Assembly (NCBI GenBank): GCA_008080945.1 | Contig: VMDH01000027.1 | Coordinates: forward strand, 1 to 51,557 | DNA length: 51,557 nt | Reading direction: 5' to 3' | Source of the DNA: Gammaproteobacteria bacterium | GTDB lineage: Bacteria > Pseudomonadota > Gammaproteobacteria > Magnimaribacterales > D2472 | Shown: piece by piece, positions 6,069 to 50,450 of the stretch | How positions within the stretch are numbered: the first letter of the stretch is position 1 | How the letters are laid out: every line of letters starts with the position of its first letter | Position numbers and translations under genes: made by a program | Notes under the pieces: model-generated | Databases searched by the model: none | Told to the model about the DNA's origin: nothing | Seen by the model: only the letters and a program-made list of their open reading frames with translations

Positions 6069-6548
6069 ATGAAGATCGCAATTTATCCTGGTTCATTTGA
6101 TCCGCTGACATTTGGTCATATAGATATTCTTGAGAGAGCAGCATCTCTATTTGATAAAGTGATTGTCGGAGTTGCAGAGAGCAAAGCAAAGAAACCTCTT
6201 TTCACAGTTGATGAGAGGCTGGCCTTGATTGATGAAATGTTTGCAGATAATGACAAGATTGAAAGTTTAGGCTATTCAGAAAAGCTCACCGTAGATCTTG
6301 CTAGAGAAAATAATGCTATTGCCATCATAAGAGGGTTGAGAGCTGTTGCTGATTTTGAGTATGAATTTCAGTTAGCAACTATGAATAGATCTCTTGCACC
6401 GGATATTGAAAGTATATTCTTTACACCTAAAGATACTTTAATTTATGTTTCTTCAAGCTTGGTAAAAGAGATCGCACAATTCGGAGGCGATGTTACCCGA
6501 TTTGTTCCCAAGCATGTCGTTAGCGCCTTAGAGAAGAAATTTACCTAA
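6069..6548 (+). CDS. coaD: Phosphopantetheine adenylyltransferase
   Basis: MKIAIYPGSFDPLTFGHIDILERA... IIRGLRAVADFEYEFQLATMNR...ETIFF-like region. Start taken at the internal ATG (6069) rather than the ORF-track TTG. Confidence 0.96.
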   Translation: MKIAIYPGSFDPLTFGHIDILERAASLFDKVIVGVAESKAKKPLFTVDERLALIDEMFADNDKIESLGYSEKLTVDLARENNAIAIIRGLRAVADFEYEFQLATMNRSLAPDIESIFFTPKDTLIYVSSSLVKEIAQFGGDVTRFVPKHVVSALEKKFT

Positions 6549-7356
6549 GTTTTTGGCATTTGTTGCATAGAAAGCTTGCTCTTTGCCCAACCACTATTCT
6601 ACTAATTGAGTTTGCACAGTTAGGACAAGGCTGATTATCATTTCCATAAACTTTGAGCTTAATTTTAAAATACCCTTTATTACCTTCTGGACTATAAAAG
6701 TCCTTTAATGTGGTGCCCCCCAAGGCTATGGCTTTCTTTAATACTTGTTTAATGGCTTTCACTAGTTTATCTATCTCAGTATTTTTTAACTTATTGCCTG
6801 ATGTCATCGGATGAACATTTGAGATAAACAGAGCTTCATTAGCATAAATATTCCCAACGCCAACAACCACGTGTTGGTTCATGATTAAATTTTTAATGGC
6901 TGCATTAGATTTAGAGATTTTTTCTTGTAAGTAGCTTGCACTAAAATTAGTTGATAAAGGTTCTGGACCAAGTTGTCTATCAAAATCTCTATAGGCTTCT
7001 TTGCTTAAGATTTTAAAATAACCAAACTTCCGAGTATCGTTAAATACGATGCTCTTGTCTTGGAAATGAAAGACTATATGGTCATGTTTTTCTATCCTAT
7101 TGCTGCTTGCTTCTTGGATGCGTAATGTCCCGGTCATACCTAAATGCAACAAATGAAAGAAATCTGAAAATTCTAGGACAATACATTTTGCTCTCCTAAA
7201 TATCTTTTCAACTACAAGGTTCTCTAATGCATGAATATTTTTAGTATCTAATTTCCAACGTAAGTGGGGGTTGGTAACTGAAATATTTTTTAGGATCTTG
7301 CCTTCAAAACCCTTTAAAGCTCTAACAGAAGTTTCTACTTCTGGAAGCTCAGGCAT
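6541..7356 (-). CDS. mutM: Formamidopyrimidine-DNA glycosylase
   Basis: MPELPEVET N-terminus and C-terminal zinc finger CPNC...CNKCQ. Confidence 0.97.
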   Translation of the reverse strand: MPELPEVETSVRALKGFEGKILKNISVTNPHLRWKLDTKNIHALENLVVEKIFRRAKCIVLEFSDFFHLLHLGMTGTLRIQEASSNRIEKHDHIVFHFQDKSIVFNDTRKFGYFKILSKEAYRDFDRQLGPEPLSTNFSASYLQEKISKSNAAIKNLIMNQHVVVGVGNIYANEALFISNVHPMTSGNKLKNTEIDKLVKAIKQVLKKAIALGGTTLKDFYSPEGNKGYFKIKLKVYGNDNQPCPNCANSISRIVVGQRASFLCNKCQKLR

Positions 7357-8687
7357 TATCCTAGAAGATTGTTTATTTCTACAAGATTTTGGGGTTGCAA
7401 GGTTCCTGCAGCTAAGTGAAGTCTGAGGATAGATAACAAATAATCATACTTAGCATTGGCAAGGTTCTTTTCTGCAGAATAAAGGCTTTTTTCTGCTTGC
7501 AAAAGGTCCACAATATTTCTGGTGCCAACCTCGTAACCTACTCTGGTTGCCTCTAAGGCAGTGGTCGCTGAAATGACTGCTTGTTTTTGGGCTTTGAGAT
7601 TAGCCACCAATGTGACCACGTTTGAATACTGGGATCTAGTTTCTTGGATTACAGATCTTTCTGCAAACACGGCATCTTGTTCTGCTTGATTAAAACTTGC
7701 GTAGGCTTGTTTTCTTCTGGAATTAACAGCTCCACCTTGAAATATCGGAACGCTCCATTGCAATGCATAATTTTCTCTTTGTGTGACATCTGGAACTGTT
7801 ATTTGGAAGCTCCCTGTATTTAGCCCATCAAAGGAATATTGATTTGTTTCAGATTCTGATTTACTGGCAACAATATCTATTTTGGGTAAGTGATTGGAAG
7901 CTGCGCCGCGTGCTGCATTTTTTGCTGCTAACTTTCGCATTTGTGCTGCTTGGAGTCTAAAATTATTTTCCAGAGCTTTGCTGACCCATTCATCCTTATC
8001 TGCGGGCACTGGATTTTGGACATTTAACTCATTAACTAAACCATCAATAGAGAAAATCTCTCTACCAACAATGGCATTCAATGCCTCTCTGGCAGTATAG
8101 ATTGCTCCCTCAGCTCTTATTTTTGCTGCAAGGCTTAAATCATATGCCAGTTGAGCTTCTTGGACCTCTGTTACTGCAGATAAGCCAACTTCATATCTTT
8201 GTTTAGTTTGTTCTAGTTGCCTTTGTATGGCTTTTTCTTCTGACAATGCTGCACTTAAGTTATCTATAGAACGTAATACATTAAAGTAGGCCTCAGCTGT
8301 TCTTACAATTAGGGACTGCTGATTAAAGGCAAAATCTGCTTCAGATGCATCGGTTAAAAGTTTAGAGCGCTTATACCCAAACCATGTATCTAGTCGAAAA
8401 AGTGGTTGAGATAGTCTGGCCTGCGAAGAAAAATTATTGTATTCGTTTTGCAAGACATCATCTTCGTAGTATTCGTTCCAATTTGTTTGTCCTGAAAGTT
8501 GGATATTAGGAAGTAATTGAGCCCTGCCTTGAACTGCTATTTCTTTGTCAGCAAGGAATGAGTACTCAGCAGCTTTATACTGAGCATCATTTTCTAATGC
8601 TTCGTTATAGATATCTAGCAGGTTTTCAGCATGCAGACTGCTGACCAGAGAAAATAAGAATAGAAATTTTAACGACTGTATTTTCAA
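7356..8687 (-). CDS. tolC: TolC-family outer membrane efflux channel
   Basis: Signal peptide, internal structural repeats typical of TolC (AEAYFNVLRSIDNLSAA..., GTRNIVDLLQAEKSLYSAEKNLANAKYDY). Confidence 0.92.
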   Translation of the reverse strand: MKIQSLKFLFLFSLVSSLHAENLLDIYNEALENDAQYKAAEYSFLADKEIAVQGRAQLLPNIQLSGQTNWNEYYEDDVLQNEYNNFSSQARLSQPLFRLDTWFGYKRSKLLTDASEADFAFNQQSLIVRTAEAYFNVLRSIDNLSAALSEEKAIQRQLEQTKQRYEVGLSAVTEVQEAQLAYDLSLAAKIRAEGAIYTAREALNAIVGREIFSIDGLVNELNVQNPVPADKDEWVSKALENNFRLQAAQMRKLAAKNAARGAASNHLPKIDIVASKSESETNQYSFDGLNTGSFQITVPDVTQRENYALQWSVPIFQGGAVNSRRKQAYASFNQAEQDAVFAERSVIQETRSQYSNVVTLVANLKAQKQAVISATTALEATRVGYEVGTRNIVDLLQAEKSLYSAEKNLANAKYDYLLSILRLHLAAGTLQPQNLVEINNLLG

Positions 8688-8830
8688 ACAATTACACCTT
8701 AGTTAACTGAAAAAATATCACTAATACCATGTTAAACGATAACAGGATTGAACTAAATAAAACCAGTTCTTTATTTTTAGTAGACAATTTTTTGCTGATA
8801 AAGTTTTTCATATTTGATCCAAAGATGAGC

Positions 8831-8858
8831 ATCATATCTTAAATGTTTACACTGTCAA
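8831..8858 (-). promoter_or_regulatory. Candidate tolC-mutM promoter
   Basis: On the minus strand: TTGACA (8858-8853), 16-bp spacer, TATGAT (8836-8831), upstream of the tolC start at 8687. Confidence 0.6.
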
Positions 8859-8861
8859 CAT
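8843..8861. promoter_or_regulatory. 19-bp inverted-repeat operator candidate over the tolC -35 region
   Basis: ATGTTTACA-C-TGTCAACAT. One mismatch between half-sites. 18/19 identical to the reverse complement of the element at 46280-46298. Confidence 0.7.
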
Positions 8862-8933
8862 CTGAATACAAACTTTACCCTTTTTAAATAGATAAATAGC
8901 CAATAGTAAGATCAAGAATGAGCTATAATTTGA

Positions 8934-10609
<1,676 letters not shown>

Positions 10610-45666: not shown

Positions 45667-46275
45667 CTAGTCTAAAAAACTGCCTAGGAAGGCATCAAGA
45701 TCTTCATTAATCTTGTCCATAACTTTTATAGCAGTGCTTGATCCAGATTCTCTGGCTTTATCAGGGATAGATTTCCTTTTATTTAGGATCATGACTAGGC
45801 CATGAGCCATTGCCCATTGCTGCATACCTTTCAGTTCAGTTTGCTCTTCATTAAGATTAAAGGCCCTGGCTATGATTTTTTTTAGAGTTTGAAAACAGGT
45901 TTCAGCGGCTTCTTCTAAGCCAGAGAATTCTGAAAAATCTTTGATACTATCGCTAAACATAAGATTATAGGTATTAAGATTATTCAATCCAAATTCTATA
46001 TATGTTCTACCAGATGCTATATGCCGCTCTCTTTCAGAGTTAAATTCACCATCTAGAACTTTTAGAAGATCCTTGGTTAGATTCTTAAAACCTTCTTCGG
46101 CTATACAAGCAAGTAATTCTTGTTTGGTTGCAAAGTGCCGATAGGGAGCAGTTTGGGAAACCTTTGCTTTTTTTGCCAGGCCGCGAAGAGAAAGAGCATC
46201 TGCTCCTTCATTCTCGCAGGTCTCACAAGCACAATCTAGCAGTACTTGTTTGAGGTTTCCGTGGTGATATTTCAT
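45667..46275 (-). CDS. TetR/AcrR-family transcriptional regulator
   Basis: N-terminal HTH (ALSLRGLAKKAKVSQTAPYRHFATKQELLACIAEEGF). Divergent from RND pump genes. Confidence 0.93.
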   Translation of the reverse strand: MKYHHGNLKQVLLDCACETCENEGADALSLRGLAKKAKVSQTAPYRHFATKQELLACIAEEGFKNLTKDLLKVLDGEFNSERERHIASGRTYIEFGLNNLNTYNLMFSDSIKDFSEFSGLEEAAETCFQTLKKIIARAFNLNEEQTELKGMQQWAMAHGLVMILNKRKSIPDKARESGSSTAIKVMDKINEDLDAFLGSFLD

Positions 46276-46279
46276 AATA

Positions 46280-46298
46280 ATGTTGACACTGTAAACAT
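46280..46298. promoter_or_regulatory. 19-bp inverted-repeat operator candidate (site 1) between tetR and the RND operon
   Basis: ATGTTGACA-C-TGTAAACAT, near-perfect inverted repeat; begins 5 bp from the tetR start codon. Confidence 0.75.
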
Positions 46299-46310
46299 TT
46301 AATATAATAT
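46283..46310 (+). promoter_or_regulatory. Candidate RND operon promoter
   Basis: TTGACA (46283-46288), 16-bp spacer, TAATAT (46305-46310), same layout as the tolC element. Confidence 0.5.
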
Positions 46311-46327
46311 GTTTACACTGAGTACAT
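46309..46327. promoter_or_regulatory. Second operator candidate (site 2), degenerate right half
   Basis: ATGTTTACA-C-TGAGTACAT, 16/19 identical to the tolC-upstream element ATGTTTACACTGTCAACAT. Confidence 0.5.
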
Positions 46328-46356: not shown

Positions 46357-47379
46357 ATGAAAAGTTTATTACACACTCAACAATTCCTATCCATTTTTTT
46401 GTTAGCTAGCACCGCTATTTTTACAAATTCATTAAAGGCTTTACCAAGTTCGTTAGAGCTCTTAAATTTAAGCATCCAAGATAGTTATACCGTATCCAGG
46501 AGAATTTCTGGAAGAATGTTGCCTAAAAATCAATCCATGCTGTCTTTTGAAATTCAGGGAAGAATATTGTCTTTTCCTGCAGATATTGGAGATGCTGTAA
46601 AAGCTGGCGATGTTCTTGCATCACTAGATGCCAGCGAAATCCAGGCCAACTTTAATCAAGCTAAGGCCCAGCAAAAATTAACTAGCTTGGCTTTAGATAG
46701 ATTTAAGGATCTCAAGGAGGATGGCTTTGTATCTTCACAAGAATTGGACAGAGCTTTGGCTGAGTATGATATTGCTAGCTCTCAAGTAGAGTTTTTCTCT
46801 GTTAAATTACGTCAGTCTCAACTTATTGCTCCTTTTGATGGATTAGTGCAGCAAAGATTTTATGATCCTGGTTCAATGGTTAACCCAATGCAGCCGGTTC
46901 TTGAGCTGATTGATTCTAAGGGAGTTGAGGGGCATATTTCAGTGCCGCAAAAGTATCTAGCGTTGCTAGAGATTGGTGCAAGCTATGCATTTGATATTTC
47001 CGGTAAAACCATTAATGCAACCTTAGAACGACTTGCGCCTATGACAAATGTTGGTTCTGGGAATAGGCTGGCAATTTTTTCTTTTCCACAATTTATTGCT
47101 CCCGGGGAGGTAGTAAACCTTCTGCTTAAAACTCAAATCAAAACTATTGGAGCATGGGTTCCCCTAAGTGCACTTTCTCAAGGCAATCAAGGGCTATGGA
47201 ATATTTATACCCTTGTTGATAATCAAGATGGCAGTAAATCTGTTGCAAGAGAAATAGTTTCTTTGGAATACACAGACGGCACTTATGCCTTCATTTCAGG
47301 AACTATAAAGAGCGGGGATCAAGTTATCACTGGGGGAGCATCCAAGGTTATTGAGGGACAACGCTTCCTTAATCAATGA
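46357..47379 (+). CDS. RND efflux periplasmic adaptor (membrane fusion protein)
   Basis: GRILSFPADIGDAVKAGDVLASLDASEIQANFNQAKAQ, IAPFDGLVQQRFYDPGSMVNPMQPVLELI. Confidence 0.92.
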   Translation: MKSLLHTQQFLSIFLLASTAIFTNSLKALPSSLELLNLSIQDSYTVSRRISGRMLPKNQSMLSFEIQGRILSFPADIGDAVKAGDVLASLDASEIQANFNQAKAQQKLTSLALDRFKDLKEDGFVSSQELDRALAEYDIASSQVEFFSVKLRQSQLIAPFDGLVQQRFYDPGSMVNPMQPVLELIDSKGVEGHISVPQKYLALLEIGASYAFDISGKTINATLERLAPMTNVGSGNRLAIFSFPQFIAPGEVVNLLLKTQIKTIGAWVPLSALSQGNQGLWNIYTLVDNQDGSKSVAREIVSLEYTDGTYAFISGTIKSGDQVITGGASKVIEGQRFLNQ

Positions 47380-50300
47380 AATTTTTAGACCTGCTTATTG
47401 ATCGTCCTAGAGTTTTTGCTTTGCTCTTGGCTTTTATATGTTTGGCTGGTTTTCTATCGCTAAATACTCTCCCAAGACAAGAAAATCCTGAGCTAGCCCA
47501 ACGCTGGTCAACAGTTCAATCCGTCTATCGGGGAGCATCACCCATTAGAATTAATACGCAGGTCTTAGATCCACTTGAGGCAAAACTTAGAGAAGTTCAA
47601 GAGATTAAAGAGATCCAGTCCGTTGCATCGGAAGGTTTTGCATCCACTGCAATTGAATTAAAGGATACTGTAGACCCAGAGCTTATTGAGCAAGTATGGT
47701 CGGAAGTACAAGATAAAATTGATCAGGCAAAATTCTTACTTCCTGCCGAAGTGGATCCCCAATTAATCAGATCCAGTGGTCCGCCAACCACATTGCTTTA
47801 TGCAATCAACTGGAATGGAGAGGGAGAAACCCCAATCATTTTATTATCACGAGTTGCAGAAGATCTAAAGAACAGACTGGCATATAGCGGTGCAACGGAT
47901 AAAACTTTTCTATACGGGGCTGCTAATGAAGAGGTGATTATTTCAATCGACAGCCAAAAGTTATCTTTGCTTGACTTAACCTTTACAGAGATAGCCAACA
48001 TTTTAAATTCATTTGATAACAAAAAACCCATCGGGATCAATACCTCTGGCTCATCCCAGATCTTAATAAAATCTCAAGATAATTTGGAATCATTGGACGA
48101 GATAAAGCAAATTCCAATCAAGACCATCTCAGGCTCCGAAATAATTAGACTTGAAGATATCGCATCATCTATTCAGCTCTTGCCTCAAACTCCATCTGAA
48201 GAAATTATCTTACATAATGGTAAGAGATCTGTTTTAGTTGATATTAGGGGTGCCTTTCGTCAGCGCATGGATTCTTATGCATCTCTTATAGAAGATACTG
48301 TTGAAGATTTTCGCTCAACGACCCCTCCAGAGATCAGTATTGTGAAAATCTACAATGAATCTCTCTTTTTAGAGAATAAATTCACAGACCTCTCGGTAAG
48401 CATATTTTTTGCTACTAACATTGTAATTTTGCTGAGTTATTTATTGCTGGGTCTGCGCTCAGCTTTAATTGTAGGGATCACGCTGCCTTTAACAATTTTT
48501 TTAGTTTTATTTGGATGCAAGGTCATTGGTTTGCCATTGCATCAAACATCCATGACTGGAATTATTATTGCGCTTGGTTTGTTGATTGATAACTCAATTA
48601 TTATGGTTGAGGATTATAAATTCAGAAGAAAATCTGGACATCCTCCTAGGGCATCTGCGCATCTGAGTTTGCAGCATCTTTGGATACCATTAGCAGCCGC
48701 TACTGCCACAACCGCATTTGCTTTCTTCCCCATAGTAGCTGGGAAGGGGCCCAGTGCAGAATTTGTCGGAGGCATGGGTATTACAGTTATCTTATCAATT
48801 ACTGCTTCATTCTTTCTTGCTTTATTTGTTGTTCCAGTCTTTCTTAATCTCATTGAAAAGGTATCTTTTTTTCAAGGCAAAGATCTTTTCAGTGAGGGAT
48901 ACTCCAATCCTGATTTAACCAATGCTTACCGAAACTTTCTCCAATGGTCTTTCAGTAAACCAAAAAGAGCAATTCTGATAGCATTCGTATTGCCAGGGCT
49001 TGGGTTTCTTGCATTCCCTTTTTTAAAACAAGATTTCTTTCCTGAGCTTGATAGGCCTATGTTTAAAGTTCTGGTTGAGCTTCCTGAAAATACTTCTGCG
49101 GAGGGTTCTGAGCAACGCCTGAAAGAACTCTCAAAAGATATTAATGAAACTCTTGGACTTGAAGTCCAGGATGAAGTTTGGTTCGTTGGCAGAAAAATGC
49201 CAAGAGTTTTATACAACGTTATTGGTGGTGATTCTCCCTTGGGATCCAATAATGTTGCCGAAGGTTTTTTTATGGTTAAGAGCTACACGGCTATGATGGA
49301 AAGAATTCCAAGTCTTGGAAGAGAGCTTGCTAAAAATAATCCTGACTTAAAAGTTATTACGGATAAGTTCGATTCAGGTCCCCCAGTCTTTGCAAGCATT
49401 GAATATAGGATTCTTGGCGATGATATTGAAATCTTAAGAGAGCTTGGTCAACAGTTTGAGTTGATTCTTTCAGATGCACCAGATGTTTTTTTAACGAAGT
49501 CAGATTTGTCTGCGATCACCACAAATTTTGAGTTTTCGTTTAATAATGAAAATATCAGCTTAAGCCCCATTGATGGATCGCTCATATTAAACGAATTATC
49601 TATCTCAAATGAGGGCCGCTATGTTGGAACCTTAATTCAAGGATCCAAAGAGATTCCAATAAAAATATTGAGTAATCAAAGCTCTAATCCTATTCAAGGC
49701 ATAGAGGATCTATCATTTCCAGGCTTATCCGAAACCCAAAATATTTCCTCTTTTGGCGATTTTAAAGTTACTAGCAGACCTAATTTCATAAACCGATTTC
49801 AAGGTATAAAGCAAAACGGAGTGAGGGCATGGATTTGGCCTGATAAGCTTGCCTCAGATACTGAAAAAATAATTCAAGAAGCTGTTACAAATTTTAGCAA
49901 TGATTTGCCTGAGGGCTATCAATTGGTATTGTCAGGAGAGGCTGATGCTCGTTCAAGATCTCAATCTAATTTATTCTCAACAGCTTTTTTATTTATTATT
50001 TTGATTATTGTATCTTTGGTTGCTGCATTGAATTCATTTAGGCAGGCCGGATTAATTTTAAGTGTAGCTATCTTATGCGTTGGCTTAGCTTTTGTTGGTC
50101 TAACAATCGGGCAAGCTAATTTTGGTTTCATTGGTCTAGTTGGAGCAGTAGGCTTAATTGGTCTTTCTATTAATGATTCAATTGTCGTGCTGTCTCACAT
50201 TAAAGAAGCAAACCAAAATAATAATCTGGACTTGAATGGTTTAGTTGAAGTAGTAATCCGTTCTACTCGACATGTTCTAACCACTACAGTGACAACTCTG

Positions 50301-50450
50301 GGAGGTTTTTTACCTCTTTTAATAACTAGCATCTTCTTTCAGCCGCTTGCATGGGCGATGAGTGGTGGAATTTTTGGAGCAACAATTATTGCCCTTCTTT
50401 ATATTCCTGGAGCTTATGTAGCATCTAAAGGACTCCATAAAACAGTCTAA
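47376..50450 (+). CDS. RND-family efflux permease
   Basis: 1024 aa. TM4 region GIIIALGLLIDNSIIMVEDYKFRRKSGHPPRAS; duplicated RND architecture and GLIGLSINDSIVVLSHIKEA in TM10. Confidence 0.95.
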   Translation: MKFLDLLIDRPRVFALLLAFICLAGFLSLNTLPRQENPELAQRWSTVQSVYRGASPIRINTQVLDPLEAKLREVQEIKEIQSVASEGFASTAIELKDTVDPELIEQVWSEVQDKIDQAKFLLPAEVDPQLIRSSGPPTTLLYAINWNGEGETPIILLSRVAEDLKNRLAYSGATDKTFLYGAANEEVIISIDSQKLSLLDLTFTEIANILNSFDNKKPIGINTSGSSQILIKSQDNLESLDEIKQIPIKTISGSEIIRLEDIASSIQLLPQTPSEEIILHNGKRSVLVDIRGAFRQRMDSYASLIEDTVEDFRSTTPPEISIVKIYNESLFLENKFTDLSVSIFFATNIVILLSYLLLGLRSALIVGITLPLTIFLVLFGCKVIGLPLHQTSMTGIIIALGLLIDNSIIMVEDYKFRRKSGHPPRASAHLSLQHLWIPLAAATATTAFAFFPIVAGKGPSAEFVGGMGITVILSITASFFLALFVVPVFLNLIEKVSFFQGKDLFSEGYSNPDLTNAYRNFLQWSFSKPKRAILIAFVLPGLGFLAFPFLKQDFFPELDRPMFKVLVELPENTSAEGSEQRLKELSKDINETLGLEVQDEVWFVGRKMPRVLYNVIGGDSPLGSNNVAEGFFMVKSYTAMMERIPSLGRELAKNNPDLKVITDKFDSGPPVFASIEYRILGDDIEILRELGQQFELILSDAPDVFLTKSDLSAITTNFEFSFNNENISLSPIDGSLILNELSISNEGRYVGTLIQGSKEIPIKILSNQSSNPIQGIEDLSFPGLSETQNISSFGDFKVTSRPNFINRFQGIKQNGVRAWIWPDKLASDTEKIIQEAVTNFSNDLPEGYQLVLSGEADARSRSQSNLFSTAFLFIILIIVSLVAALNSFRQAGLILSVAILCVGLAFVGLTIGQANFGFIGLVGAVGLIGLSINDSIVVLSHIKEANQNNNLDLNGLVEVVIRSTRHVLTTTVTTLGGFLPLLITSIFFQPLAWAMSGGIFGATIIALLYIPGAYVASKGLHKTV

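Follow-up and report, generated by a model that had tools for sequence, protein, structure and literature searches.

A putative TetR-family regulon joining an RND efflux pump with a separately located tolC in SAR86 bacteria

Related systems

Repressors of the AcrR, MtrR and TtgR type act locally on RND pumps, and classically their operator is local and not common to tolC. The SAR86 locus described here resembles them in its adjacent, divergent tetR, in the operator over the pump promoter and, presumably, in autoregulation, but it differs in that the operator is also present at tolC. TetR-family control of a pump together with a separate tolC is already known. The TetR-family regulator AtrR (VCA0767) of Vibrio cholerae has a negative effect on vexRAB and on the separate tolC, seen in mutant RNA-seq and RT-qPCR (PMC10805010). 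It is there the second regulator, the pump-linked VexR being an activator of vexRAB, and the text of that paper was found to hold no operator or binding data for AtrR (PMC10805010). Common to both cases are TetR-family proteins and an RND operon with a separately located tolC as shared channel, repression in SAR86 being our interpretation, whereas in SAR86 the pump-adjacent TetR itself appears to have an operator common to tolC and to a diiron-protein gene.

SAR92/Porticoccaceae-type bacteria have a homologous TetR (36–39% identity to the one considered here) with the same tandem operators between tetR and a divergent RND adaptor gene, and tolC directly downstream of tetR on the same strand (loci L343, L345 and L347). 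In SAR86, by contrast, tolC is tens of kilobases off with an operator of its own.

Little work has been done on the regulators of SAR86, a group abundant in the surface ocean; a literature search found no report of such a regulator from it. Judged by its sequences, the system appears to be a small, well-supported regulon of broadly familiar type. What is new is a pump-linked TetR with a sequence-defined operator kept across a major marine clade, and its diiron and PAN/rhodanese targets. A conserved operator read from genomes gives in this way a defined regulon and EMSA-ready probes, and is a route to asking which compound streamlined SAR86 cells must expel.

The pump locus

The window, by which is meant the whole stretch of DNA analysed (51,557 nucleotides), is part of a 0.89 Mb, 70% complete genome of the SAR86 family. 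The genome's place in the SAR86 cluster is shown by the nearest named relatives of its TetR, most of which are SAR86 records. The order at the pump locus is tetR (45667–46275, minus strand), then the divergent genes for an RND periplasmic adaptor (46357–47379, plus; RND_mfp, TIGR01730) and an RND permease (47376–50450, plus; ACR_tran, PF00873, E 1.1e-113). The locus was said in an earlier note on this DNA to have no channel gene of its own, and this holds as far as the contig end. In the window's genome, which has two full RND permeases and one fragment, tolC encodes the only OEP-family protein detected; a single one was likewise detected in the other genome of the genus.

The TetR protein, the only match of its kind in its own genome, has the N-terminal helix-turn-helix (PF00440, 36.8 bits against a cut-off of 24) and a ligand-binding C-terminal domain (PF13305, TetR_C_33, 32.4 against 26.8 bits). 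It is neither AcrR nor MtrR proper, scoring far below the cut-offs of both NCBIfam models (22.5 against 271 bits and 25.1 against 280 bits, respectively). Its setting is that of a local RND repressor: tetR is divergent from the adaptor gene with operators between them, and this is kept across the family.

The first operator, O1, TGTTGACACTGTAAACA (46281–46297, plus), is kept in all genera and contains the −35 of the predicted pump promoter, TTGACA-16-TAATAT (46283–46310, plus; a consensus match only, 10/12). The second, O2, TGTTTACACTGAGTACA (46310–46326, plus), comes 29 bp after O1 and lies at the 3′ edge of the predicted −10. The site at 46281–46297 had been noticed earlier and stands, though not as a single one, since O2 makes of it a tandem pair, the sole tandem autoregulatory copy of the motif in this genome.

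The operator at tolC

The gene tolC (7356–8687, minus) matches the OEP (PF02321), TIGR01844 and TolC models and starts with TTG, seven bases 3′ of an AAGGTG. Its end is overlapped by a mutM-like gene (6541–7356, minus), which on ORF adjacency is probably co-transcribed with it. The tolC operator, TGTTGACAGTGTAAACA in the tolC direction (8844–8860, minus), overlaps the −35 of the predicted promoter TTGACA-16-TATGAT (8831–8858, minus; again a consensus match only, 11/12), the −35 being within it. The two sequences on which the earlier note based its comparison of tolC and pump are exactly where and on the strands it had them: the first 23 positions differ by one base (G/C at position 10), and at both loci TTGACA is in the inverted repeat, 16 bp ahead of a −10-like hexamer (8858–8831 minus, 46283–46310 plus). 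In the window's own genus (g1) the operator lies over the −35, some 150 bp ahead of the start codon, a layout like that at the pump promoter. The long tolC 5′ leader (8688–8830) of this genus was not seen in other genera, and an Rfam search of 8500–9100 gave no riboswitch, the sole match being far below gathering.

In other genera a few tens of bases at most separate the operator from the tolC start. In many of them it follows a TATAAT-like hexamer, or a TTGACA at promoter-like distance, which would put it over the −10 or the transcription start. The −35-covering layout is specific to the window's genus; the predicted control of tolC through the operator is more widespread.

The operator is a 17-bp near-palindrome with consensus TGTTTACA-N-TGTAAACA, present at tolC and at tetR/RND. 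The stretch common to both is TGTTGACA-N-TGTAAACA followed by TTTAA, and the palindrome type ascribed to the proposed TetR is TGTTKACA-N-TGYNNACA. Pattern searches of the genome (892,612 bases) found exactly two copies of the 22-mer TGTTGACASTGTAAACATTTAA and one extra match at up to three mismatches, at which its reversed control gave none. Rather than many scattered matches, the scan gave four equally good sites at three loci (the weaker O2 counted), all intergenic, the third locus being immediately 5′ of a gene for an AurF-like diiron protein. On a position matrix trained on family tetR/RND sites alone, with tolC sites left out, the tolC site scores 27.0, as does O1, and O2 scores 17.0. The best remaining sequence in the window reaches 11.6. 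A degenerate pattern, TGTNNACANNGTNNACA, gave at one mismatch 18 matches against 13 for its control, near background outside the real sites, so the stricter motif alone was used. Across the family the reversed control pattern has 0–1 matches on each strand of a genome, where the motif itself has up to 7; some near-consensus singletons (L221–L223, L225, L226) are in or beside unrelated genes and were taken as chance.

Conservation within the family

Family sites were scored as match counts to the consensus, with tolC starts in relatives taken from alignments; the genomes are mostly incomplete, which makes absences weak evidence. TetR orthologues are present in 97 of 108 family genomes. At the tetR/RND loci of all ten genera, 73 of 74 have at least one operator matching 12/16 or more; 72 have two, typically 27–33 bp apart in the gap between tetR and the adaptor gene, which is divergent from tetR at nearly all 74. 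The tetR-proximal operator usually holds TTGACA, with the second just downstream.

At tolC, 70 genomes were compared; the predicted operator of the proposed regulator matches at 13/16 or more in the promoter region of 49 of them, from nine genera: g1 2/2, g2 1/1, g3 0/10, g4 3/3, g5 19/21, g6 4/4, g7 1/7, g8 1/1, g9 7/10 and g10 11/11. Sites are kept in relatives, then, at both tolC and tetR/RND. The two weaker g5 sites at tolC, and two of those in g9, are intermediate; one from each genus (G031, G065) has a matrix score of 17, against a shuffle maximum below 10. A good tolC site is absent from all ten g3 and six of seven g7 genomes, with the tetR/RND operators kept in those examined, so co-regulation is not universal. 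Across genera the co-variation in sequence of tolC and RND operators is no more than suggestive (permutation p = 0.055); g9 and g10 have TGT/TGC half-site variants. In one genome (G046:C1:426698-427072) the tetR match has four in-frame stops, with both operators and the tolC site kept; a recent pseudogene or an assembly error is possible.

The earlier description of tolC as unlinked is right in that it is a transcription unit separate from tetR/RND. It is, however, syntenic with tetR, 37 kb off in the window, and a distance of about 30–37 kb is kept in many genera (for example in G042, G055, G063, G065 and G082). This synteny is among the features to which that note did not extend, with O2, the AurF-like and PAN/rhodanese targets and the adjacency of tetR and tolC in SAR92.

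Outside the family

Genera g11, g12 and g13 are from another family of the order. The tandem tetR operators are kept in g13, where tolC has no site; in g12 no TetR was detected, and the five genomes examined have no tolC site. In g11 (L234, L235, L243, L244, L246–L248) tolC has a TGTTTACAGTGTCAACT site matching at 14/16. At the loci checked in g11 the TetR homologue has no RND adaptor gene next to it, and in two genomes TetR was not matched at threshold, so another regulator may read the site there. SAR86 may either have split an ancestral tetR–tolC pair or have gained the tolC operator separately, the operator having been retained after tolC and the pump locus came apart, or gained despite it.

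Proposed regulation and alternatives

Very probably TetR binds these operators and represses the pump, itself, the sole TolC found and the diiron gene, with a ligand releasing it. Ligand-free TetR would occupy O1 and O2, holding down pump and tetR, and the single operators at tolC and at the AurF-like gene. A toxic or hydrophobic ligand would free it, and adaptor, permease and outer-membrane channel would rise together. Operator sequences, their positions over predicted core promoters, their conservation and the gene content are what is directly seen. Placement over core promoters, with a tandem copy at tetR itself, points to repression with autoregulation, relieved by ligand; binding of TetR to DNA, repression and its degree, and release by ligand are what we infer. 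Co-repression of pump and tolC by TetR, as first proposed in the earlier note, is favoured by the rarity of the operator, by its conservation and by the single TolC, with TetR binding the predicted step. A proposed pump-specific repressor would in that case have control of the one channel that the genome was found to encode. As one TolC has to serve at least two RND permeases, to shut tolC off fully would be costly. Since it has one operator against two at the pump, and is the sole channel found for two full permeases, tolC is probably less tightly repressed than the pump, a basal level being kept.

It is unlikely, though of the alternatives this fares best, that the tolC operator is real but read by a different TetR-like regulator, a paralogue or a member of another family, with a shared motif. 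The g11 tolC site, with its lack of a clear pump-linked TetR, and a g5 genome (G036) with three TetR matches are in its favour. Against it, the window's genome has a single match to its TetR and the only tandem autoregulatory copy of the motif is at that gene, genomes in which TetR was not detected mostly lack a tolC site, and tolC adjoins the same tetR in SAR92-type relatives. One g9 genome (G080), for instance, has neither a detected TetR nor a tolC site; G030 has the site with TetR not found, in a genome 59% complete.

That TetR instead activates its targets, or activates as well as represses, is distinctly improbable. Some TetR-family proteins do activate, VexR of V. cholerae among them (PMC10805010), but in the targets examined the operators overlap the −35, the −10 or the likely transcription start, which favours repression.

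More improbable still is service of the site to thiC rather than tolC. The operator is in the tolC promoter region, as was said earlier, but tolC is not its sole neighbour: the intergenic region is common to the divergent thiC (8943), whose start is 82 bp from the operator in the window's genome. The promoter through the site points to tolC, however, and thiC adjoins tolC only in g1, g2, most of g7 and one g5 genome, yet the site stays at tolC in most genera, where thiC is not the neighbour, and so tracks tolC.

A chance sigma-70 promoter resembling the RND promoter is hardly credible, even in an AT-rich genome and with a TTGACA common to many promoters, since dinucleotide shuffling of the tolC upstream sequence, done 400 times, never reaches the score (maximum 9.6), exact copies of the 22-mer genome-wide are only two, and retention across nine genera already contradicts it.

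With repression of pump and tolC by the window's TetR the preferred reading, other genes carrying the operator can be considered.

Further candidate targets

The operator upstream of the AurF-like (PF11583) diiron gene, TGTTTACACCGTAAACA (G000:C5:5796-5812), comes right after a TATAAT-like hexamer. This gene bears an operator in g1, g4, g5, g7, g10 and part of g9; a paralogue 59% identical in the window's genome (G000:C4:28764) has none under the stricter pattern. In g4 and g5 the operator also marks the gene of a small secreted protein (PAN-like in g4) as a candidate target; a rhodanese-domain gene adjoins it or is divergent from it. A search for the PAN-like gene in g1, itself of little weight, gave no match.

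We offer only tentatively the reading that TetR rules a compact detoxify-and-export regulon, in which RND pump, sole TolC found, AurF-like protein and, in some genera, PAN-like protein would answer to one marine compound that is sensed. The AurF-like diiron protein is possibly an oxygenase modifying that same compound.

At the secreted-protein promoters of g4 and g5 (L209–L220, L224, L228) the operator is often paired. Genes for a patatin-like and a TonB-receptor-like protein follow the PAN-like/rhodanese locus in g4, where one genome has two such operator loci.
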